The position numbers and the translations under genes are program-made. From Oscillospiraceae bacterium (GTDB taxonomy: Bacteria > Bacillota > Clostridia > Christensenellales > Aristaeellaceae): a DNA stretch of 64,000 nucleotides. The DNA lies in NCBI GenBank assembly GCA_031255415.1, contig JAIRSO010000066.1, forward strand, positions 24,163-88,162. The letters are read 5' to 3'. The notes under the pieces were generated by a model. It was not told where the DNA came from, searched no databases, and saw only the letters and a list, made by a program, of their open reading frames with translations. Numbering within the stretch: position 1 is the first letter of the stretch; each line of letters opens with the position of its first letter. Positions 1-56,062 of the stretch are shown here, in pieces.

Positions 1-600
1 ATCGTAGCCGAACTGCAGGAGTTGAGTTATTTCGACTTAGCTCTGCCCAGGAAGGGCGTGCTGGCTGGGAACCGCGTGCGCAAGCTCTGCGGGCAGGTGG
101 TGCGGAATCTGGCGTTTGAGGAAGCGTCCAAGCCATGCGCGGTGGTGGCGTGCGCGCTGGATACGGGCGAGGAAGTGGTGTTTAAGAATGGATCGATGGA
201 GGACGCGATAAGGGCGAGTATATCGATCCCGGGGGTGTTCGTGCCGCACGAGATCAACGGGAGGCTGTATGTGGACGGGGGGTTGGTGAACAGGGTGCCC
301 GTGACCACCGCGCGCGAGATGGGCGCGAAGCTGGTGATAGGCGTGGACGTAGGGTATCGGGGGGAACCGGTACAGCCGAAGGGTGTGATAGGGGTGATGA
401 TGCAGGCGTTTGACATAATGGAGTGGCATCTAGCGCGGATGAAATTCTCGACCGCCGATCTGATGATCATCCCGGACGTGCGGGAGTTGAATCCCGTGCA
501 CATGAATCACGCGGCGAAGGCTATCGCCAGGGGGAGGGAGGCCGCGAGGGAGGCGCTGCCGCGTATCCGCGAAATGCTGGGCGAAAACGTCGGAAATTGA
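1..600 (+). CDS. Patatin-like phospholipase, C-terminal part (truncated at window edge)
   Basis: Frame is open to base 1; [29 protein letters not shown] resembles the patatin DGG motif region. Confidence 0.8.
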
Positions 601-671
601 CGCGCGCCTTCCCAATCATTCGCGGCTGTGATATACTTTCCTCATTCAATAATATCGCAAGGAGGACTCCA

Positions 672-2601: not shown

Positions 2602-2625
2602 TCACAGCGGCACATGGGTCCAGCG
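2602..2625 (+). repeat. 24-nt dispersed repeat, copy A: TCACAGCGGCACATGGGTCCAGCG
   Basis: Exact match to the reverse complement of 53155-53178; lies between fucI and the next ORF at a GC-skew flip. Confidence 0.95.
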
Positions 2626-2646
2626 GCACGCGCTAGGAGGCTGACT

Positions 2647-3609
2647 ATGCCGATCAACAACTTCCTTCGACATGGCAACACTCTTGTCGAGGCGCTCTCT
2701 GACGACTCCAACTTTGTTGACGACGTCCCTTACACCGACGAATCCTCCGAATCCTTCTCCGTCACCGAACCTGCTGGCGACGCTTCCGATGTTCAGCGCA
2801 TTATCCAGCAGAAGCTCAGCGGCATCGAGATAACCAGCCCTGTTGGCACCCCAATCTCTCCGGACGTTACCAACGACTTCGAGATCAAATCTGTTGCTGG
2901 CGACTCCGGGCTCCCCTTCTTCGCGGAGTTCCGGCTCCAGGGCGAGAGCGACGTTCAGATGACCACTAAAAAGCGCAACCAGCGCACCCGTATCGATCTT
3001 ACTCTTTCTACCGATTCTGACGGCATACTTCGCGCCACACTCCCCCCTGGCTCTTTTGCGATCACCCAGCAGTCCACCCAACCTGGGTACCTCCTTAACG
3101 CCTTGCATCATGATCTCCAGGTCGGCACATCGGGCTACGTCATTGACGGCGTATATTTTGATGAAACCCCTGGCATTATTACACCAAAACTATCGCAGCC
3201 TTTCAAGATCCGCATCCTCACCCCTGACGATACCCCTTCTCTTTCAACCTACATCGTAGCCGGTTACGCCAATACATATCTGGGCGAGACCGACGTTGAG
3301 CTAACCATATCCCCTGACGCGGACGGCTATGCTTCTTTCGATCTCCCGGTCGGACACTATTCGCTTATCAATCCCCTATCTGCCGACACTATCCTCCTTG
3401 ACCTTGACGTACAACCCACCTCCCCTAACGCAACCACTCTCCTTGAATACACGATCACGGAAACCCCCGCTCCCCCTCCCACCCAATACCCTACCACTCC
3501 CGCCACCCCCGACGAAGTATCCTCTCCCGGCGACTTGCTCGAATTATACACCCCCTTAAGCTCATTACAACCTCCCCCCACCCCTGCTCCGCAGCCGCCG
3601 AAACTCTAA
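2647..3609 (+). CDS. Hypothetical protein with prealbumin-like beta-sandwich repeats and Pro/Thr-rich C-terminus
   Basis: ATG at 2647 preceded by AGGAGG; two segments of the type DGILRATLPPGSFAI / DGYASFDLPVGHYSL; unusual pyrimidine-rich codon usage. Confidence 0.7.
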   Translation: MPINNFLRHGNTLVEALSDDSNFVDDVPYTDESSESFSVTEPAGDASDVQRIIQQKLSGIEITSPVGTPISPDVTNDFEIKSVAGDSGLPFFAEFRLQGESDVQMTTKKRNQRTRIDLTLSTDSDGILRATLPPGSFAITQQSTQPGYLLNALHHDLQVGTSGYVIDGVYFDETPGIITPKLSQPFKIRILTPDDTPSLSTYIVAGYANTYLGETDVELTISPDADGYASFDLPVGHYSLINPLSADTILLDLDVQPTSPNATTLLEYTITETPAPPPTQYPTTPATPDEVSSPGDLLELYTPLSSLQPPPTPAPQPPKL

Positions 3610-3614
3610 AAGAA

Positions 3615-3638
3615 GCGCCCTCTCGACCGAGAGGGCGC
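3615..3638 (+). terminator. Intrinsic hairpin terminator
   Basis: GCGCCCTCTC-gacc-GAGAGGGCGC immediately after the stop at 3609. Confidence 0.7.
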
Positions 3639-3663
3639 TCATCAACTAACTCAACCCAACCCC

Positions 3664-4821
3664 TTAAGGCTGCCTGCTTCTCCAGTGCCATTTCTCTACC
3701 AAGAGCGCTGTGCCCGCCATGATAACCACTACCAGTATCCACGGCGCGGCGATCGTTATAAACACAAGCATATCCATGAAGTAATTACCCACCGCGCGAG
3801 CCGACATACCGAATTGGGTGCGCATCCTGCCCCATAGCGTAACCCCTAACGCTTCTATCGGATCGGCTGTTTCGGTCATCGCGATATCAATCTGTGAGAA
3901 CAGCGCTCTCGCGTCCCAGTTCTCCAGCGTGGCCTGTATGGAGCTGATCTGCGCTTCCGTGTCGGATATACCGCGCTCGATCGTCATCTTTTCCTCTATA
4001 GACGAGGTTTCCCCCAGCAGCTGAATAAACCTATCCAACTGGTTCTTGCAGGAAGCCAGCTTGGTAGTCATTTCAGCGTACTGATCGGTATAATCCTGCT
4101 GTTGCAGTTCGGAGTCCTCCACGTCCACGATCGAGTCCAGCGCGCGCAGGAATCCTCCCAGCGACTTTTCCGGCATCCTGATCTGGAGCGAGCAGAACCT
4201 GCCGCCCTTACCATCGCGCGTAAGCGGCAGACCGCTGACCGCCTCATACTGCGCCCAGCCTCCATACTGCAGCGTTAACTTCAGTATAGCGTCCTTATCG
4301 TCGTCGAAGTTGTTCGTTTTGACTGTATACGATCCGCTTCTCAGCCGTCTTTGCGCGTCAGCGACCGACTGGATCTGCTGCGCGTCCCCTTCCGCCAGCA
4401 AACCGCCCTGATCCGCGTTGGTATACACGGTATCGCTGCCCGGTGGGAACAGCCCGTCCGCGCCGGCGTTTTCGACCCTAGCCGCGCCTGGAATGAGTCC
4501 CACGTGAACCAGCGTCGCGCCGCCGAACAGGATCGCGACCAGCGCGGCGACCGCTATGAATATCCTGACATTCGTATCTATCCGCCTCTTGCTTGGCTTT
4601 TCCATCCGGATCATCTGCCGCCAGGCTATAGACAGTTCGTCGGGAGGCTCTATATCAGCGTCCAGCGTGTGAAGATGCTGTACTAGTTCGTACATTTCCT
4701 CACGATAAGCCGCGCACACAGGGCATCCGGCTTCGTGTTCCACCATTTCCTGCATAGTCCGGCGTGGCATCTGTCCGTCCAACAGCTCATGTAAAAGGAG
4801 GCGGTACTTTTCACAGGTCAC
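3664..4821 (-). CDS. Anti-sigma factor-like protein (zinc-finger N-terminus, DUF4349-like C-terminus)
   Basis: N-terminal CEKYRLLLHELLDG...HEAGCPVC; TM segment; adjacent to ECF sigma factor. Confidence 0.75.
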   Translation of the reverse strand: MTCEKYRLLLHELLDGQMPRRTMQEMVEHEAGCPVCAAYREEMYELVQHLHTLDADIEPPDELSIAWRQMIRMEKPSKRRIDTNVRIFIAVAALVAILFGGATLVHVGLIPGAARVENAGADGLFPPGSDTVYTNADQGGLLAEGDAQQIQSVADAQRRLRSGSYTVKTNNFDDDKDAILKLTLQYGGWAQYEAVSGLPLTRDGKGGRFCSLQIRMPEKSLGGFLRALDSIVDVEDSELQQQDYTDQYAEMTTKLASCKNQLDRFIQLLGETSSIEEKMTIERGISDTEAQISSIQATLENWDARALFSQIDIAMTETADPIEALGVTLWGRMRTQFGMSARAVGNYFMDMLVFITIAAPWILVVVIMAGTALLVEKWHWRSRQP

Positions 4822-20389: not shown

Positions 20390-20539
20390 CCCTCCCGATC
20401 GATGCTAATTTCTTCCAATCGTTCCGGTTAATTAACGCGCGCGGAGGATAAATTCATTCAACGCGGGGTAAAATGCTTACGGTTCATAATGACGGAAACG
20501 GCGGGATAAGCGTTGATAGATACGCCAAGGAGCGCTCTT

Positions 20540-21469
20540 ATGAGTCGTATAAGAACCGATCTCGCGCTGGAATCCAGCGCGCTGCAGAACGCGTCGGGGG
20601 AGATCGCGGGCATAGCCATGCGCCAGCAGCAATACGGACAGGTGATGGAAACCGTCGTTGAGATTATCAACGAGCAAGGCGCGAAGATACTGGGTCGCGC
20701 GGTGGGGCGGTATGTGACGCTGGCGTGCGGCGCGCTGTCGGCGGACGAGGTGGAGCCGCGCGATATATTGGTGTCGCGGCTGCGCCAGACGATAACGTCC
20801 ATGATCCCAGACTGCGGCGACGTGCTGGTGATAGGGCTGGGCAACAGGAGGATCACCGCCGACTCGCTGGGGCCGAAGGTGATAGACCGGGTTATAGTTA
20901 CCCGGCATATGCGCGAACAAACGCCGCAGAACTTGAAAGGCCGCTTGCGGTCGGTCAGCGCGGTCGCGCCGGGCGTGCTGGGCGTGACGGGAGTGGAGAC
21001 TGCGGAGGTGGTTCGCGGCATCGTGGAGCATATCAATCCGTGCGCGGTGATCGCGATAGACGCGCTCGCCGCGCGCGAGACACAGCGTATCTGCACGACG
21101 GTGCAGATCGCGGATACAGGCATCGATCCAGGATCGGGGATAGGCAACCACCGCATGGCGCTTAATCGAGAGACGCTGGGCGTGCCGGTAGTGGCGCTGG
21201 GCGTGCCGATGGTGGTATACGCCGCGACGATCGCCAGGGACGCGCTGTCGTTGCTGGCGGGGGATTTGGGTTTTGATTGCGATAAGCACGCGCAGGCGCT
21301 GGACGCGCTGGTGCAGCGGGTAGTGGATGAGCAGTTGGGGGACATGGTGGTAACGCCGCGCGAGGTGGATGAACGCGTGGAGAACATAGCCGAGGCTGTC
21401 GCGCTAGGCATTAATAAGGCTCTTCAGCCCGATCTGCATGAGGACGAGATCCCGCTGCTGATGCATTAG
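20540..21469 (+). CDS. gpr: GPR endopeptidase (spore germination protease)
   Basis: IRTDLALESSAL, VLVIGLGNRRITADSLGPKV, DTGIDPGSGIGNHR. Confidence 0.95.
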   Translation: MSRIRTDLALESSALQNASGEIAGIAMRQQQYGQVMETVVEIINEQGAKILGRAVGRYVTLACGALSADEVEPRDILVSRLRQTITSMIPDCGDVLVIGLGNRRITADSLGPKVIDRVIVTRHMREQTPQNLKGRLRSVSAVAPGVLGVTGVETAEVVRGIVEHINPCAVIAIDALAARETQRICTTVQIADTGIDPGSGIGNHRMALNRETLGVPVVALGVPMVVYAATIARDALSLLAGDLGFDCDKHAQALDALVQRVVDEQLGDMVVTPREVDERVENIAEAVALGINKALQPDLHEDEIPLLMH

Positions 21470-21612
21470 CGGGGGAAGGGAGGAGCGCGCCTTTGCCGCG
21501 AAACGGCGCAGGCGCGTCCTTTTCGGCAGCCGCTCGCCAATTTCAGGTCTAACCGCGGAGCGCCTCGCATATACTGATACATCATGCTGAGCGTTTATAT
21601 CGAACAACCGTC

Positions 21613-22674
21613 TTGCGGAAAGATTCATATATGAAACGCCGAAACTCCGATCCGCTCACACGCTGGGACGCTGTGCGCATACTCGCGGCTGCGGCGCTGT
21701 GCGTTGCGGCTGTGTTCGCGTTCCGCGACCAGGGAGGATTCTCTCCGGGCGCGATCCTTCCCGACTGGGGCTTGAACGGCGATCCAGCCGAGTCGGCAGC
21801 CGCCTCGGACGGCGCGTCCGGCTATCTATCGGAGGACATGACCGTATTGTCGGACGGCGCGTCCGTCGCGGAGCCTACGCCCTCGCCGCCCCCGTCCGTC
21901 AGGCTGAACCTGCTCGATCCGGAGGATAACGTCGCGCTGCAAGACCCGGCTGGCGAGCACTACGGTTCCGACTCGCCCGAGGCTAGCGAGGTCGTGCCGG
22001 AAAACGATCTGCGCATCGACACCATCATCCGCAAGCGCGAAGGCGCGCTTCGCGTGCTGATCTACCATACCCACACCGAGGAGGCTTACACGCCCACCCC
22101 GGACTACACCTACCGCACCCACGGCGAATGGCACACGCAGAATCTATCGTGCTCGATCGCGCGGGTGGGAGAGGAACTGGCGTTCATCCTATCGGAGGAA
22201 TACGGCTGGGAGGTCGCGCACGAAACGACCGACTTCGAGCCGCCCGACTTCGACACGGCTTACACCCGATCTCTGCAGGGAGTCGCCGCGTACGCCGAGC
22301 GCGGCGAGACGTTCGATCTATATATAGACATGCACCGCGACTCGTATTCAAACGGTTTCGCCAGCAATACGGTCTCCATCGGCGATATCGAGGCCGCGCG
22401 GCTGCGGCTGCTGGTCGGCAAGGGCGGCGATTTTTCCCAGAAACCCGACTGGGAGCGGAATCTCAGTCTCGCGCAGTCCGTCACCGACCGCCTGAACGCT
22501 ATCGCGCCCGATCTAGCCGCGCCCATCTATCTATCGCCGCGCAACCGTTACAATCAACACGTGTCCGTCAACGCGGTACTGATAGAGGTCGGCAACAACC
22601 GCAACACGATGGAGGAGGCGCTGGCGGTCATGCCGTTCCTAGCCGAGGCGCTCGACGCGGTGATGAGCGAATAA
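21613..22674 (+). CDS. spoIIP: Stage II sporulation protein P
   Basis: VLIYHTHTEEAYTP, DLYIDMHRDSYS, NAVLIEVGNNRNTMEEAL. Confidence 0.93.
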   Translation: MRKDSYMKRRNSDPLTRWDAVRILAAAALCVAAVFAFRDQGGFSPGAILPDWGLNGDPAESAAASDGASGYLSEDMTVLSDGASVAEPTPSPPPSVRLNLLDPEDNVALQDPAGEHYGSDSPEASEVVPENDLRIDTIIRKREGALRVLIYHTHTEEAYTPTPDYTYRTHGEWHTQNLSCSIARVGEELAFILSEEYGWEVAHETTDFEPPDFDTAYTRSLQGVAAYAERGETFDLYIDMHRDSYSNGFASNTVSIGDIEAARLRLLVGKGGDFSQKPDWERNLSLAQSVTDRLNAIAPDLAAPIYLSPRNRYNQHVSVNAVLIEVGNNRNTMEEALAVMPFLAEALDAVMSE

Positions 22675-31324: not shown

Positions 31325-31700
31325 GTCACGCGAGTATGCTGAACGGTCGCATGCTGGTGCATGAGGAAAGTCCGAGCGCCATAGAGCGGGACGCAGGGTA
31401 ACGCCCTGTGGAGGCGACTCCAAGGAAAGTGCAACAGAAATAAACCGCCGCGCGCGGCGGCGCGAAAGAGCGCCGCCGCTTACGGCAAGGATGGAAAGGC
31501 GAGGTAAAAGCTCACCCGGGGGTTCGGCGACGAATCCCCGCTGTAAACCCCGTCCGGCGCAAGATTGATGGGGGCGTATGCGGTTGCTCGCCGCGCCCCG
31601 AGAATCGCTTGAGCCCGGCGGCAACGCCGGGCCTAGATAGATGACCGTTCAACGGCGCGTAAAAGCGCCCGGGACAGAACTCGGCTTATAGGCATACTCG
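31325..31700 (+). ncRNA. rnpB: RNase P RNA component
   Basis: GAGGAAAGTCCGAGCGCCATAGAGC near 5' end; AGATAGATGACCGTTC and ACAGAACTCGGCTTATAG near 3' end. Confidence 0.95.
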
Positions 31701-31755
31701 ATAGATTGGGTTCCCTTCGCTTCGCACGGTATCTTCCCCTGGGAACGCCCCCTCT

Positions 31756-48496: not shown

Positions 48497-50017
48497 ATGC
48501 GGACAAAAGGCGACATACTGCGCGGGGTGTTCGGGTTCGACGGGTTTCGTCCCGGGCAGGAGGATATCATCGACGCTACCCTGTCCGGGCGCGACGTTCT
48601 AGCGGTAATGCCAACGGGCGGCGGCAAGTCGCTGTGCTATCAGATTCCCGCGCTGCTGACTCGCGGCGCGACGTTCGTCATATCGCCACTGGTCTCGCTG
48701 ATGAAGGATCAGGTGGGCGCGCTCAGGCAGAACGGGGTCGCCGCGGCTTTCCTAAACAGCACTCTTACCCCCGGACAGTATCGCAAGGCGCTGGACAACG
48801 CCGCGTCCGGCATGTACCGTATCATTTATATCGCGCCGGAGAGGCTGTCCAGTCCCGACTTCCGCGCGTTCGCGGCGGCTCGTCCGCCCGAGCGGATCGC
48901 GGTGGACGAGGCGCATTGCGTCTCGCAATGGGGTCGCGATTTCCGACCCAGTTATCTGGATATAGGCCCGTTCGTCGAATCCCTGCCGTTCAGGCCTACT
49001 CTGGCGGCGTTCACCGCTACCGCGACGAATCGCGTCAGAACGGATATCGTCGAACTGCTGGGACTGCGCGATCCCGTGCGCGCGGTCGGCGCGTTCGATC
49101 GTCCCAATCTCTTTTTCGAGGTGATCAAAGGAAAAGGCGGACGCGCCAGAGACCGTCTGCTGATGGCTCTGATGGATGAACAGCGCGGACGCAGCGGAAT
49201 CATATACTGCGCCACGCGTAAGACGGTGGACTCGGTCTGCGATATGCTGCGCGGCGGCGGGATCGGCGCGGGACGCTATCACGCGGGGATGCCGGACGAC
49301 GAGCGCCGCGCGAGTCAGGACGCGTTCGCGTCGGACGACACGCCCGTATTAGTCGCCACTAACGCGTTTGGTATGGGTATCGATAAATCCAACGTATCAT
49401 TCATCATTCATTACAACATGCCGGGCGATTTGGAGAGTTATTATCAGGAGGCGGGGCGCGCCGGACGCGACGGATCGGACGCGCTGTGTCTGCTTCTGTT
49501 CGCGCCCGCCGATATAATGGTTCGCAAAAGCCTCATCGAGCACGGCGAGGACGCGCGCGACCCGGAGGCTCTGCGCCGCGCGAAACAGCGGCTTGAGGTG
49601 ATGATCTCATACGCGACGGGCGGAGGTTGCTTGCGCGCGCGGTTATTGCGCTATTTTGGGGAGAAACCTCCGGTCAGATGCGGATCGTGCGGAAACTGCG
49701 CCGGGCCGCGAATCGCGGAGTCCATCCTGGCGGCGGCGCAAGCCGAACCCGCCGTCCGCGCGGCGCGGGTCAAACCCAAGCGCGAGGCAAGCTCCGCCGT
49801 TGACGCGGAGTTGTTCGAGCGGCTGAAGGAACTGCGCCTTAGCGTAGCCAAGGCGCAGGGGATTCCGGCATACATGGTGTTCAGCAACGCTACGCTCGAG
49901 GATATGTGCCGCAAACATCCGCGCACGCTAGCCGCCATGCTGAACGTAGCCGGCGTGGGCGAACACAAGGTGAGGGCGTATGGCGCGCGGTTCCTGCAAG
50001 TCCTGCTGGATCAATAG
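48497..50017 (+). CDS. recQ: RecQ family ATP-dependent DNA helicase
   Basis: VLAVMPTGGGKSLCYQIPALL, DEAHC, QEAGRAGRDG, zinc Cys cluster, HRDC-like C-terminus. Confidence 0.95.
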   Translation: MRTKGDILRGVFGFDGFRPGQEDIIDATLSGRDVLAVMPTGGGKSLCYQIPALLTRGATFVISPLVSLMKDQVGALRQNGVAAAFLNSTLTPGQYRKALDNAASGMYRIIYIAPERLSSPDFRAFAAARPPERIAVDEAHCVSQWGRDFRPSYLDIGPFVESLPFRPTLAAFTATATNRVRTDIVELLGLRDPVRAVGAFDRPNLFFEVIKGKGGRARDRLLMALMDEQRGRSGIIYCATRKTVDSVCDMLRGGGIGAGRYHAGMPDDERRASQDAFASDDTPVLVATNAFGMGIDKSNVSFIIHYNMPGDLESYYQEAGRAGRDGSDALCLLLFAPADIMVRKSLIEHGEDARDPEALRRAKQRLEVMISYATGGGCLRARLLRYFGEKPPVRCGSCGNCAGPRIAESILAAAQAEPAVRAARVKPKREASSAVDAELFERLKELRLSVAKAQGIPAYMVFSNATLEDMCRKHPRTLAAMLNVAGVGEHKVRAYGARFLQVLLDQ

Positions 50018-50931: not shown

Positions 50932-51675
50932 TTACAACCGGGTCAAAGCGCAAGCAGCCTCGCTACGGTTGGAACGCAGTTGGCGGATTCCAACGATTGC
51001 GTAAGATTGTTCCAGAGCGGCGCGGGCTGTTTTGATTATGCCAGGCCAAGAGGGCGTCGCGTTCGAGGGCAGTTTCAGCGTCATCAATGCCCATCCGGAT
51101 TGAGTCAATAGCGGCGCGCAGTCCAGCATAACCCTGCAGGAACGCGCCGCGTCCATCTTCATGTCGTTGACAAGAAGCGACGCGCGGCTGATGGGAGCGG
51201 TTTGAAGGTACTGTCCGGCGGTAGTGCGGATGTGGGTGACGGAAGGGTTGTCAGCCGCGAGCGGATGCAGAGCGCCAGGATCGACTGCAGTGACGAGTAT
51301 CCCAAGAGAGGCCAGCACGTATGACCAGCCTCCAGGCGCGGCTCCAAGGTCGACGGCGAGGGATCCGGGCGCGATAGGTATGCCGAACAGGTCGATGGCT
51401 TCTAAAAGTTTCATCTCCGAGCGGCAGATAGTGAATGGGTAACGCGAGGGTCGTTCAATGGGGAGGGAATCGCCGCGTATGGGTTGGACGTCGCGAGCAA
51501 ATACGGGCGGGTTGGACGACAGTATCCGCGTAAAGTCGTCAAACCCGCCGTCCCATTCGATTATACGGGAGATAGGCGAGATGGGATCGCCCGCGCGCAG
51601 TCCGGCAAAGCGCGAGGTTAGTTCGCGCATAGCAAGGCGTTCAGCCTCGCGATGGAAGAACGCAAGAGCTTTCAA
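50932..51675 (-). CDS. SAM-dependent methyltransferase (RlmM/FtsJ-like)
   Basis: GSLAVDLGAAPGGWSYVLASLGILVTAVDPG. Confidence 0.82.
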   Translation of the reverse strand: MKALAFFHREAERLAMRELTSRFAGLRAGDPISPISRIIEWDGGFDDFTRILSSNPPVFARDVQPIRGDSLPIERPSRYPFTICRSEMKLLEAIDLFGIPIAPGSLAVDLGAAPGGWSYVLASLGILVTAVDPGALHPLAADNPSVTHIRTTAGQYLQTAPISRASLLVNDMKMDAARSCRVMLDCAPLLTQSGWALMTLKLPSNATPSWPGIIKTARAALEQSYAIVGIRQLRSNRSEAACALTRL

Positions 51676-51680
51676 GAGTG

Positions 51681-53075
51681 TTAAAACTCAGCGGAGCCAG
51701 TGGTGCGGGGGAAGGGGATAACGTCGCGTATGTTAGACATGCCCGTAAGGAACATGATCAGTCTGTCAAATCCTAATCCGAATCCAGCGTGGGGCACGCT
51801 GCCATATGCGCGCAGGTCGAGATACCAACGATAAGGTTCAAGCGGCATGTTGAGTTCCAGCATGCGAGAGGTTAAGGCGTCCATGCGTTCCTCCCGCTGG
51901 CTGCCGCCAACCAGTTCGCCAATGCCCGGAGCAAGGAGGTCAGCCGCCGCGACAGTCTTGCCGTCGTCGTTCATGCGCATATAGAACGCTTTGATCTCCT
52001 TAGGGTAGTCATGGACAAAGACAGGGCGTTTGAAGTATGTTTCAGCGAGGTATTTCTCGTGTTCGGTTTGGAGGTCGCTGCCCCAGGAGACAGGGTATTC
52101 GAATGACAGCGGGGCTTTTTGGAGGATGGAGATTGCGTCCGTATAGGTGATACGAGCGAAGTTGGACGTAGCGACGTTTTCAAGGCGGTCAAGGAGGGTT
52201 TTGTCGAACATTTGGTTGAGGAAGCGAAGGTCAGGAAGGGATTCGGTAAGGATAGAGGTGACGATGTCCTTAGTGAAGGATTCCGCGAGATCCATGTCGG
52301 CATGGAGGTCAGCAAAAGCAATTTCAGGTTCGATCATCCAGAATTCAGCGGCATGGCGAGGCGTGTAGCTACGCTCGGCACGGAAGGTAGGGCCGAATGT
52401 GTAACAGTCGCGAAGCGCAAGACAGAATGCCTCGACGTTAAGCTGGCCAGAGACGGTAAGGAAAGCGGCGCGGCTGAAGAAGTCTTGAGAGAGGTCGGCA
52501 AGGCCGGAAGGGGTAAGAGGAGGGGTGTGTGGGTCAAGGGCAGTAACGCGGAACATCTCGCCCGCGCCTTCAGCGTCAGAGGTGGTAATAATAGGGGTGT
52601 GGACATAGATAAAGCCAAGGTCATGAAAGAATTTGTGGACGCGCTGCGCGGCAAGCGAGCGGATACGGAAGACCGCGCCGAATGTGTTGCTGCGAGGACG
52701 CAAGTGAGAGATGGAACGGAGGAATTCAAGAGAGTGGCCTTTCTTCTGGAGTGGGTAATCGGATGAGGAAGGGCCTGAAAGGGTGATGGAGGTTGCCTGC
52801 ATCTCGAAAGGTTGCTTGCGGTCAGGGGTGGGGATGATGGAGCCAAGGCAAGTGAAAGCAGCGCCGACGTTTTGCTTGGCGATATCCTTGTAGTTAGGGA
52901 TAGCGTCAGAAGCAGCGACGATCTGCAAAGGCTGCTGGTGCGTGCCGTCGGATAAGGCGATAAAGGCGAAAGCACGGGAGTCGCGGATAGAGCGCGCCCA
53001 GCCGGATACGGATACGTCAAGGAGCGGCTCGACGGGAGGCGCCGCGTAAAGTTCGCGCACGGTTAGTTTAGTCAT
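51681..53075 (-). CDS. asnS: Asparaginyl-tRNA synthetase
   Basis: MTKLTVRELY start after AGGAGG; FFSRAAFLTVSGQLNVEAFCLALRDCYTFGPTFRAERSYTPRHAAEFWMIEPEIAF. Confidence 0.96.
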   Translation of the reverse strand: MTKLTVRELYAAPPVEPLLDVSVSGWARSIRDSRAFAFIALSDGTHQQPLQIVAASDAIPNYKDIAKQNVGAAFTCLGSIIPTPDRKQPFEMQATSITLSGPSSSDYPLQKKGHSLEFLRSISHLRPRSNTFGAVFRIRSLAAQRVHKFFHDLGFIYVHTPIITTSDAEGAGEMFRVTALDPHTPPLTPSGLADLSQDFFSRAAFLTVSGQLNVEAFCLALRDCYTFGPTFRAERSYTPRHAAEFWMIEPEIAFADLHADMDLAESFTKDIVTSILTESLPDLRFLNQMFDKTLLDRLENVATSNFARITYTDAISILQKAPLSFEYPVSWGSDLQTEHEKYLAETYFKRPVFVHDYPKEIKAFYMRMNDDGKTVAAADLLAPGIGELVGGSQREERMDALTSRMLELNMPLEPYRWYLDLRAYGSVPHAGFGLGFDRLIMFLTGMSNIRDVIPFPRTTGSAEF

Positions 53076-53142
53076 AACATCCTCCTGGAATATAGCATTG
53101 ACAAGTGATGATCCTGGAGAGTCAACGAGCCGGGGCAAGGAA

Positions 53143-53163
53143 GGTCCAGCGGCACGCTGGACC
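53143..53163. other. Perfect 9-bp inverted repeat (3-nt loop) fused to 24-mer copy B
   Basis: GGTCCAGCG-gca-CGCTGGACC. Confidence 0.85.
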
Positions 53164-53178
53164 CATGTGCCGCTGTGA
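53155..53178 (-). repeat. 24-nt dispersed repeat, copy B
   Basis: + strand CGCTGGACCCATGTGCCGCTGTGA is the exact reverse complement of 2602-2625. Confidence 0.95.
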
Positions 53179-53186
53179 TGTTTTTG

Positions 53187-54473
<1,287 letters not shown>

Positions 54474-54476
54474 CTA

Positions 54477-54950
54477 TTATAATATTAACGCGGCTGCCGC
54501 TATGCCTAGCGCCGCCCCGGCCAATACCTCTACCGGCGTGTGACCGATCCATTCTATCAGCGTCTCTTGCTTAATCGGCGTGCCTTTCTCTATAAGGTTC
54601 TCTAGATCGGTCAGCAGCTGATTGATAACCTTCGCATGCCTTCCCGCCTGCCTCCTCACTCCTGACGCGTCATACATAACGATCAACGCTAACGCGCACG
54701 CCAGCGCGAATATCGGCTCCCCGAAACCTTCTTGCAAACCTACTCCCATCGCAAGCGCCGCGGCCATCGCGGCATGCGAGGACGGCATCCCCCCGGACTG
54801 AATGATCTTGCGGATATTCAAACGCTTCTCCGTAATCAACACTACCACTACCTTGGCGATCTGCGCGACGACCCACGCTAACAGCGCGACTCCTAGCACG
54901 CGGTTCTCGAAGATATGGCTCAAATGGGTGATGCGGGACAATTGCTTCAC
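54477..54950 (-). CDS. Divergent PAP2 family protein (DUF212-like)
   Basis: QSGGMPSSHAAMAAALAMGVG; DASGVRRQAGRHAKVIN; GHTPVEVLAGAALG. Confidence 0.9.
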   Translation of the reverse strand: MKQLSRITHLSHIFENRVLGVALLAWVVAQIAKVVVVLITEKRLNIRKIIQSGGMPSSHAAMAAALAMGVGLQEGFGEPIFALACALALIVMYDASGVRRQAGRHAKVINQLLTDLENLIEKGTPIKQETLIEWIGHTPVEVLAGAALGIAAAALIL

Positions 54951-54962
54951 TCCTTTACGCGG

Positions 54963-55847
54963 TCAGGCGAATTCCCTCATCATCTCCACGAACTGCGCCA
55001 GCGGCGCGCCTCGTCCTCCCAGCTTCCATAGGGCCGCAAGCGCGGCGCGTTCCCATTCTTCCGCTTTGCGTTTCGACTCGTTGATCCCGTATACTACAGG
55101 CCATGTTATCTGCCCCTTATCCGTATCCGCATCCTGCAGATCGTCTCGCAGTTGGTACAGCATGCCCAGTTTCAGACCGAATGATACGGCGGCTTCGATC
55201 TCGCTTTCCGACGCTCCCGCCAGCCTGAACCCGGCCTCCGCTGCGGCGCGGAACATCTCCGCCGTCTTCCTCCGATCTATATCCTCCAACAACGCCGCCC
55301 GATCCTCAATCCCGCCGTCCTTCCATCTAACCGACCCTGTTCCTACCATATCCAGATACTGCCCTACGGCTATACCGCGCATTCCCGCCGCGGTCAATAC
55401 CGCGCGCGCCGCGTCCACCCGGCGTTTCATTCGTTCGAATACCATGGCTTCGCTTGCTTTAACGATCATCCGCTCCGCCGCGATTGCTAGCAGCGCGTCC
55501 CCGGACAGCACCGCCATACCCTCCCCATACGCCTTATGATGAGCGGGCTTGCCCCTTCTTGTATCCGCGTCGTCCATCGAGGGCAGATCGTCGTGTATTA
55601 ATGAAAACGCGTGTATACACTCCAGCGCGGCGGCATAACGCAACGCCTCGCCATCTTCCCCATCGCCGCCCATCGTTTCATACGCGGCTAACAACAGCCC
55701 GCCCCGCAGACGCTTCCCGCCTCCTAGCAGCCCATAACCCAGCATCCGCGAGAATTCTTCATACTCCGGCGCTTCCGGCTCGCAGAACCCCGATAGCTCG
55801 CGTTCTATATCCTTTGCCCACGCCGCTAACCGTTCCTTCATACTCAT
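54963..55847 (-). CDS. ispA: Polyprenyl (farnesyl) diphosphate synthase
   Basis: GGKRLRG; FSLIHDDLPSMDDADTRRGKPAHH; YQLRDDLQDADTDKGQITWP. Confidence 0.95.
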   Translation of the reverse strand: MSMKERLAAWAKDIERELSGFCEPEAPEYEEFSRMLGYGLLGGGKRLRGGLLLAAYETMGGDGEDGEALRYAAALECIHAFSLIHDDLPSMDDADTRRGKPAHHKAYGEGMAVLSGDALLAIAAERMIVKASEAMVFERMKRRVDAARAVLTAAGMRGIAVGQYLDMVGTGSVRWKDGGIEDRAALLEDIDRRKTAEMFRAAAEAGFRLAGASESEIEAAVSFGLKLGMLYQLRDDLQDADTDKGQITWPVVYGINESKRKAEEWERAALAALWKLGGRGAPLAQFVEMMREFA

Positions 55848-56062
55848 ATATCATTCCCGTCCGTCCCGCCACGCTCGTCCACGCTCAGCGTGACCAACCG
55901 CTTCTCGGTCTGGTTTAATTGCTCGTCTAGAGCGCGGGCTAGGTTCATCCCGTCGGCGTATGTGCTCATCGCTTCCTCTAGCGTCAACTGCCTCGTCTCC
56001 ATGCGCTTGACCAGCGATTCCAATCGTTCCAATCCAGCTTCGAAAGTCGTGTCATCCGGCAC
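55844..56062 (-). CDS. xseB: Exodeoxyribonuclease VII small subunit
   Basis: FEAGLERLESLVKRMETRQLTLEEAMSTYADGMNLA. Confidence 0.93.
   Translation of the reverse strand: MPDDTTFEAGLERLESLVKRMETRQLTLEEAMSTYADGMNLARALDEQLNQTEKRLVTLSVDERGGTDGNDI

Follow-up and report, generated by a model that had tools for sequence, protein, structure and literature searches.

Strand-asymmetric mutational halos surround a dispersed inverted-repeat element in an uncultured genus of Oscillospiraceae

Results

The stretch of DNA analysed here (the window, 64,000 nucleotides) comes from the genome of a gut bacterium belonging to an uncultured genus of Oscillospiraceae. This genome, called here G000, is a 2.15-Mb metagenome assembly of 104 contigs that is 88% complete. 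A preliminary description of the window reported that one 24-nt sequence occurs at two distant sites and that a chance match of this length is very improbable. Both claims were borne out, as the 24-mer was recovered as an exact match at 2602-2625 on the + strand (copy A) and at 53155-53178 on the - strand (copy B), and the absence of any match in 100 shuffles excludes a chance repeat as the origin of the pair. Copy A is located between fucI, encoding L-fucose isomerase (423-2486, + strand, Pfam domains from residue 104), which is transcribed towards it, and a gene encoding a SpaA-like protein of the prealbumin fold (2647-3609, + strand, SpaA match slightly under the Pfam cut-off), which is transcribed away from it and whose coding strand is C-rich. 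Copy B is located between an asnS-like gene for a class II tRNA synthetase (51681-53138, - strand), directed away from it, and the gene of the obg GTPase (53187-54461, - strand), directed towards it and C-depleted at fourfold sites; both genes were identified by Pfam.

Several other features of the window should be mentioned. The fucI open reading frame starts about 76-100 codons ahead of the fucose isomerase domains (window 423-650), and this N-terminal extension matches short open reading frames in the related genome G003 (C40) and beside an element of the related genome G001 (C91, L217), not fucI orthologues. A gene encoding a RecQ-family helicase (48497-50017) is found 3 kb from copy B, a class A RNase P RNA gene lies at 31331-31704, and genes for a germination protease and SpoIIP (20513-22674) identify the bacterium as a spore former by gene content.

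Alignment of the repeat copies placed the 24-mer in a larger structure. The preliminary description was right that the 24-mer is real, but it is only part of the feature: it forms the outer portion of an arm belonging to a dispersed, non-coding inverted-repeat element, and this arm also carries a longer leader and internal stems. In G000, 31 copies of the 20-nt core (at most one mismatch) and at least 42 element sites were found. The aligned unit consists of a roughly 20-nt leader, the core AGCGGCACATGGGTCCAGCG, the stems CACGCTGGTCAGGGGGTCAAGGGGGG...CCCCAGCG and more GC-rich repeats. In intact copies a second, inverted unit follows 280-480 bp off; in some copies a second arm type (R) is the partner of the first, and in many copies the loop contains a GC-rich inverted-repeat insert. 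Copy A consists of one arm, made of leader and core, AGCGGCACATGGGTCCAGCGGCACGC (2587-2631, + strand); its second arm is absent and no strong hairpin is left (folding z-score -0.6). Copy B (53134-53188, - strand) is a degenerate element composed of an L-type arm on the minus strand and part of an R-type arm, forming a GGTCCAGCG-TGC-CGCTGGACC stem. Many copies sit at contig ends because the assembly breaks inside the element. Long poly-G and poly-C runs were seen in elements at contig ends (L049, L053, L063, L065, L066 and L134-L136); they are absent from the fully assembled G001 copies and are probably two-colour sequencing artefacts at strong hairpins.

The element was then compared among four species of the same genus, G000 to G003. 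All species compared are metagenome assemblies (78-91% complete within the genus, 91% for G001), and claims of absence hinge on this completeness. The G001 version differs from that of G000 and comprises 290-bp inverted repeats as well as minimal near-perfect palindromes of 81 bp, the hairpin of the 81-nt mini element being predicted at -50.5 kcal/mol (z-score -16). G002 and G003 share another version, present in at least 29-30 copies each and not found in the 27 other genera searched. The arm sequences are species-specific around a common GGTCCAG motif, and to date the element is known from a single Oscillospiraceae genus. GC-rich loop inserts of a similar type occur in a few relatives. Searches gave no match to an Rfam family and no match on plasmids. 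The exact core was also encountered in Comamonas, Sphingomonas and a betaproteobacterium, where no flips accompany it, and these occurrences were taken as chance.

To describe base composition around the two copies, GC skew was calculated in 300-bp windows. The flip reported earlier at each site was reproduced: the skew of the + strand stood at +0.37 on the left and -0.55 on the right of copy A, and at +0.39 and -0.55 on the two sides of copy B. According to the skew, the + strand has lost C at 1-2600 and G at 2632-4800 on the left and right of copy A, and C at 51000-53133 and G at 53189-55900 on the left and right of copy B. The AT skew, described as close to balanced, is slightly off, the G-excess strand being also A-excess (mean +0.14 beside elements).

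The same association was observed throughout the genome. In a scan covering 1.01 Mb of G000, with 0.35 as the threshold for a strong flip, 9 of the 9 G-to-C flips lay at most 165 bp from an element, and the strong flips of the opposite sense (C to G) were all situated 1.6-2.6 kb from an element and correspond to the halo edges. At positions more than 4 kb from elements (n = 2,183), the flip statistic had a standard deviation of 0.088 and a maximum of 0.32. Eleven interior elements gave a mean flip of 0.53, compared to a maximum of 0.107 over 10,000 random draws. Nearly every copy examined was positioned on a G-to-C flip or on a one-sided remnant of one, the weakest flip among the core copies being that of L067, which upholds the proposal that the repeat marks skew flips genome-wide. 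Neither of the outcomes named beforehand as refuting this proposal, copies in regions lacking a skew change or equally strong flips being common away from the repeat, was encountered.

Around the G000 copies the + strand changes from G-rich to C-rich whichever way the copy points. The halo extends over about 2.5 kb per side, peaks at 0.2-1 kb from the element and decays smoothly, running across gene boundaries into unrelated flanking genes; on the 3'-ended strand the skew averages 0.26-0.37 within the first kilobase and reaches zero by about 2.8-3 kb. All 47 flanks bordered by an arm had a positive halo, with a mean of about 0.32, versus 0.07 for the five arm-less flanks. In half-elements the halo was mainly on the side of the intact arm (L050, L062 and L144 in G000; L125, L126 and L136 in G001). 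Copy A is an exception, with a two-sided halo that includes the arm-less side and no hairpin; therefore, either this halo is a fossil or halos do not depend on the palindrome as such.

Two candidate causes within the element were rejected. Hairpins of any kind do not produce a halo, as terminator-like palindromes with arms of 18-20 nt lack one, so that the halo must depend on arm length or on sequence. Nor is the GGGGCAGCGCCCC loop insert responsible, since arrays of it in G018, a genome of another genus, lack flips and insert-free mini elements of G001 show strong halos. These G018 repeats of the GGGGCAGCGCCCC type form direct arrays with a spacing of about 150-165 bp (C42 21567-22365, C5 55314-55853 and C31 10984-11667). 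Among the terminator-like palindromes that have no skew halo is a second dispersed palindrome of G000, with TTTTCTGACAGGCATACCG arms (L081 7330-7377 and L168 6456-6503).

The bases involved were determined by strand and codon position. On the strand with its 3' end towards the element, C decreased from 0.30 to 0.185 while A increased from 0.195 to 0.26 and G from 0.30 to 0.35, T remaining steady. The skew is carried mainly by third positions of intact conserved genes. At fourfold sites of genes called by a simple home-made method (some gene calls are approximate), genes directed towards the element showed a decrease of C from 0.355 to 0.12 and an increase of A from 0.08 to 0.25, and genes directed away from it showed the complement (G from 0.50 to 0.18, T from 0.09 to 0.30). 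The fourfold composition therefore flips with the strand, independently of gene direction.

Substitutions were reconstructed by parsimony in a small set of two halo genes, taking as ancestral the state common to two sisters. In fucI, 51 of the 71 fourfold C had changed (24 to G, 21 to A and 6 to T), versus 15 of the 61 G. In asnS, 43 of the 53 fourfold G had changed (20 to C and 18 to T), and C-to-T changes were also found at 15 of 61 sites. Both genes changed fast by the halo pattern in the element-bearing lineage only, and a control gene located 16 kb from the nearest element displayed no such base asymmetry. Compared with G001, fucI retains 88.7% protein identity for 75.8% DNA identity, the halo gene being intact, and the control gene 84.9% for 81.5%. 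The halo spectrum consists of C-to-A and C-to-G changes and is poor in C-to-T, so that plain deamination does not account for it.

As judged from these sequence comparisons, the results show that the strand running 3' into the element has lost C to A and G over about 2.5 kb per side, and that this loss is limited to lineages having the element at that place. The feature is a mutational halo and not a set of inverted genes, because the loss of C ignores gene orientation and the rapid change of fucI and asnS is restricted to the element lineage. The preliminary description had read the open reading frame downstream of copy A as reversed relative to normal; this reading fails, its C-rich coding strand being the right half of a two-sided halo. 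Gene inversion is ruled out by the complementary fourfold composition and by the size of the skew, which exceeds what simple inversion of ordinary sequence would give (background absolute skew at most 0.29).

Comparison of orthologous loci addressed the contribution of the element itself. In G001, where the stretches were chosen around elements, the halo was replicated with a different element sequence over a range of 1-1.5 kb. There, C was lost mostly to G, and the product spectrum therefore differs between species. Halos of G002 and G003 were weak, with means of +0.07 on the left and -0.09 on the right in a list that includes one G000 locus. No flip above 0.21 was detected in G008 and G018, the two other genera sampled for flips. 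Both asnS and fucI are unskewed in relatives devoid of the element at these places. The fourfold C content of obg is 0.14 in G000 and 0.17 in G002, both of which have an element by the obg 3' end, and 0.33 in G001, where the copy B site is empty. A fossil halo in the G001 obg was considered and dropped, as its fourfold composition is near the genus background. Because asnS and fucI are unskewed where the element is missing and C depletion of obg tracks its presence, it is the element, not the locus, that brings the halo.

Genes of the SbcCD nuclease were also looked for. Neither sbcD nor sbcC was detected in G000 (88% complete) or G001 (91%), and both are present in G002 and G003; the clearest halos are thus those of the two species in which sbcCD was not detected, and sbcCD appears to have been lost in the G000/G001 branch. 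It should be noted that several other genera of the family are also devoid of clear sbcCD hits and that G008, one of them, has no halos. That the loss of sbcCD lets long palindromes persist, and is thereby tied to clear halos, is a lead and not a result, drawn from four species with incomplete genomes.

Discussion

In yeast, loss of C on the left and of G on the right of the top strand has been assigned to bidirectional 5'-to-3' resection at breaks (PMC6786661), and the mutations left by mutagenic break repair in E. coli are densest in the kilobase nearest the break, on either side (PMC9239211). The yeast arrangement is seen here too, C being lost from the top strand on the left of the centre and G on the right. 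We consider it probable that each arm recurrently starts 5'-to-3' strand loss, from a break or a nick, followed by mutagenic refilling. The DNA at each arm would be broken or nicked again and again, the strand with its 5' end at the element would be removed outward from 5' to 3' over up to 2-3 kb, and it would be copied anew from the exposed 3' overhang, with characteristic errors. These errors would stem from lesions at template C or from misinsertion opposite it, leaving G-to-T and G-to-C changes in the refilled strand; they may reflect oxidised guanine in the complementary strand, or a polymerase that places pyrimidines opposite C or an abasic site. Over evolutionary time, the skew would thus come to flip from G to C with the element at the centre. 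A simple two-ended break accounts less well for the one-sided halos of half-elements than does an arm-specific nick, or a rearrangement that removed the arm together with its flank. Cutting by SbcCD was rejected as the initiating event, since neither sbcC nor sbcD turned up in G000 or G001, which makes the known palindrome-cutting route unlikely in these two species. That the element and a putative genus-specific enzyme constitute a dedicated, dispersed cis-acting device for local hypermutation, which would open the DNA outward from every arm and copy it back mutagenically, with species-specific arms co-evolving with the nuclease, is a tentative extension that we regard as rather unlikely.

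Somewhat less likely again is an origin in replication, whereby hairpins of the element would stall forks, or the element would act locally as a barrier to them, and mutations on both sides would arise during restart or gap filling. The long stable hairpins, such as that of the 81-nt mini element, would suit such a process, loss of sbcCD would leave them uncut, and in E. coli hairpin cleavage at a palindrome depends on replication (PMC4245961). However, a fork moves one way at a given locus and should leave a one-sided halo set by the direction of replication, yet intact elements are flanked by halos on both sides, roughly equal in size. We give no more credence to arm-polar nicking by a dedicated, sequence-specific nickase or HUH-type enzyme that would recognise each arm and start strand removal on one side, two-sided flips then reflecting inverted arm pairs. 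The halo on the intact outer-arm side of the six half-elements, the contrast between arm-bordered and arm-less flanks and the species-specific arms around GGTCCAG are in line with it. Nevertheless, the arm-less side of copy A has a halo too, a single rearrangement removing arm and halo together could explain a missing side, no Y1 transposase (PF01797) was found in G000-G003, and no candidate enzyme emerged.

Transcription and Chi orientation are able to skew strands. Yet asymmetric transcription or R-loops, or selection acting on codon usage or on Chi-like motifs, are very improbable sources of the halos: their sign is independent of gene direction, and the change occurs at fourfold sites, with one base accelerated, and decays with distance across gene boundaries. 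AGCGG is commoner than its complement in halos (211 versus 64), but this is the direction favoured by skew alone, and Chi-motif enrichment was discarded as no single 5- to 8-mer dominates beyond composition. Preferential insertion of the element at pre-existing flips would yield the same association; it is contradicted, and hardly credible, given that no comparable flips exist away from elements or in the other genera, that asnS and fucI are unskewed in element-free relatives and that the obg halo tracks the element. An artefact of assembly, binning or sequencing, which metagenome assembly and the many elements at contig ends with poly-G or poly-C runs might suggest, is the least credible of all, as the skew affects mostly third positions of conserved genes that are intact, is seen at interior elements with both flanks and was replicated in independent metagenome-assembled genomes.

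If recurrent strand loss and refilling at the arms is the true cause, these genomes preserve natural traces of tens of DNA-processing sites of long standing, and their halos would reveal how far strand removal and refilling extend in wild bacteria, how symmetric they are and which errors they make. A mobile repeat would then be able to alter synonymous codons locally in housekeeping genes unrelated to it, obg and asnS among them, an effect that would confound skew-based origin finding and codon-usage analyses.

Our literature search returned no earlier dispersed bacterial repeat with a centred, strand-asymmetric mutational footprint. The break-associated clusters of yeast (PMC6786661) and E. 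coli (PMC9239211) similarly affect C on one side and G on the other and decay on a kilobase scale, but they are single-episode and APOBEC-driven or Pol IV-dependent, unlike the fixed compositional change by C-to-A and C-to-G described here. Chromosomal palindromes cleaved by SbcCD in E. coli (PMC4245961, PMC4213011) are likewise long palindromes acting as chronic sites of DNA processing; the present element differs in being natural and multi-copy, in leaving a long-term mutational imprint and in occurring, in G000 and G001, where SbcC and SbcD were not detected.

The element also resembles two classes of dispersed repeats. Like the element described here, REP/BIME elements are short, non-coding, intergenic and hairpin-forming, often arranged as inverted pairs, and exist in tens of copies with species-specific sequences. 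They differ in having a RAYT partner (TnpA_REP, Y1_Tnp, PF01797), a domain detected in none of the six genomes searched here, which include G000-G003. To our knowledge, REPs have not been reported to be surrounded by mutational or skew halos. Like MITEs, the element has terminal inverted repeats, is non-coding and dispersed, and has an empty orthologous site. No target-site duplication was obvious at 10 G001 copies, whose exact ends are uncertain. In full G001 elements such as L128 (9825-10112), a duplicated CCAGCGTSACGCTGG borders the loop insert of the 290-bp form, an arrangement resembling the insertion of another small element into the palindrome.
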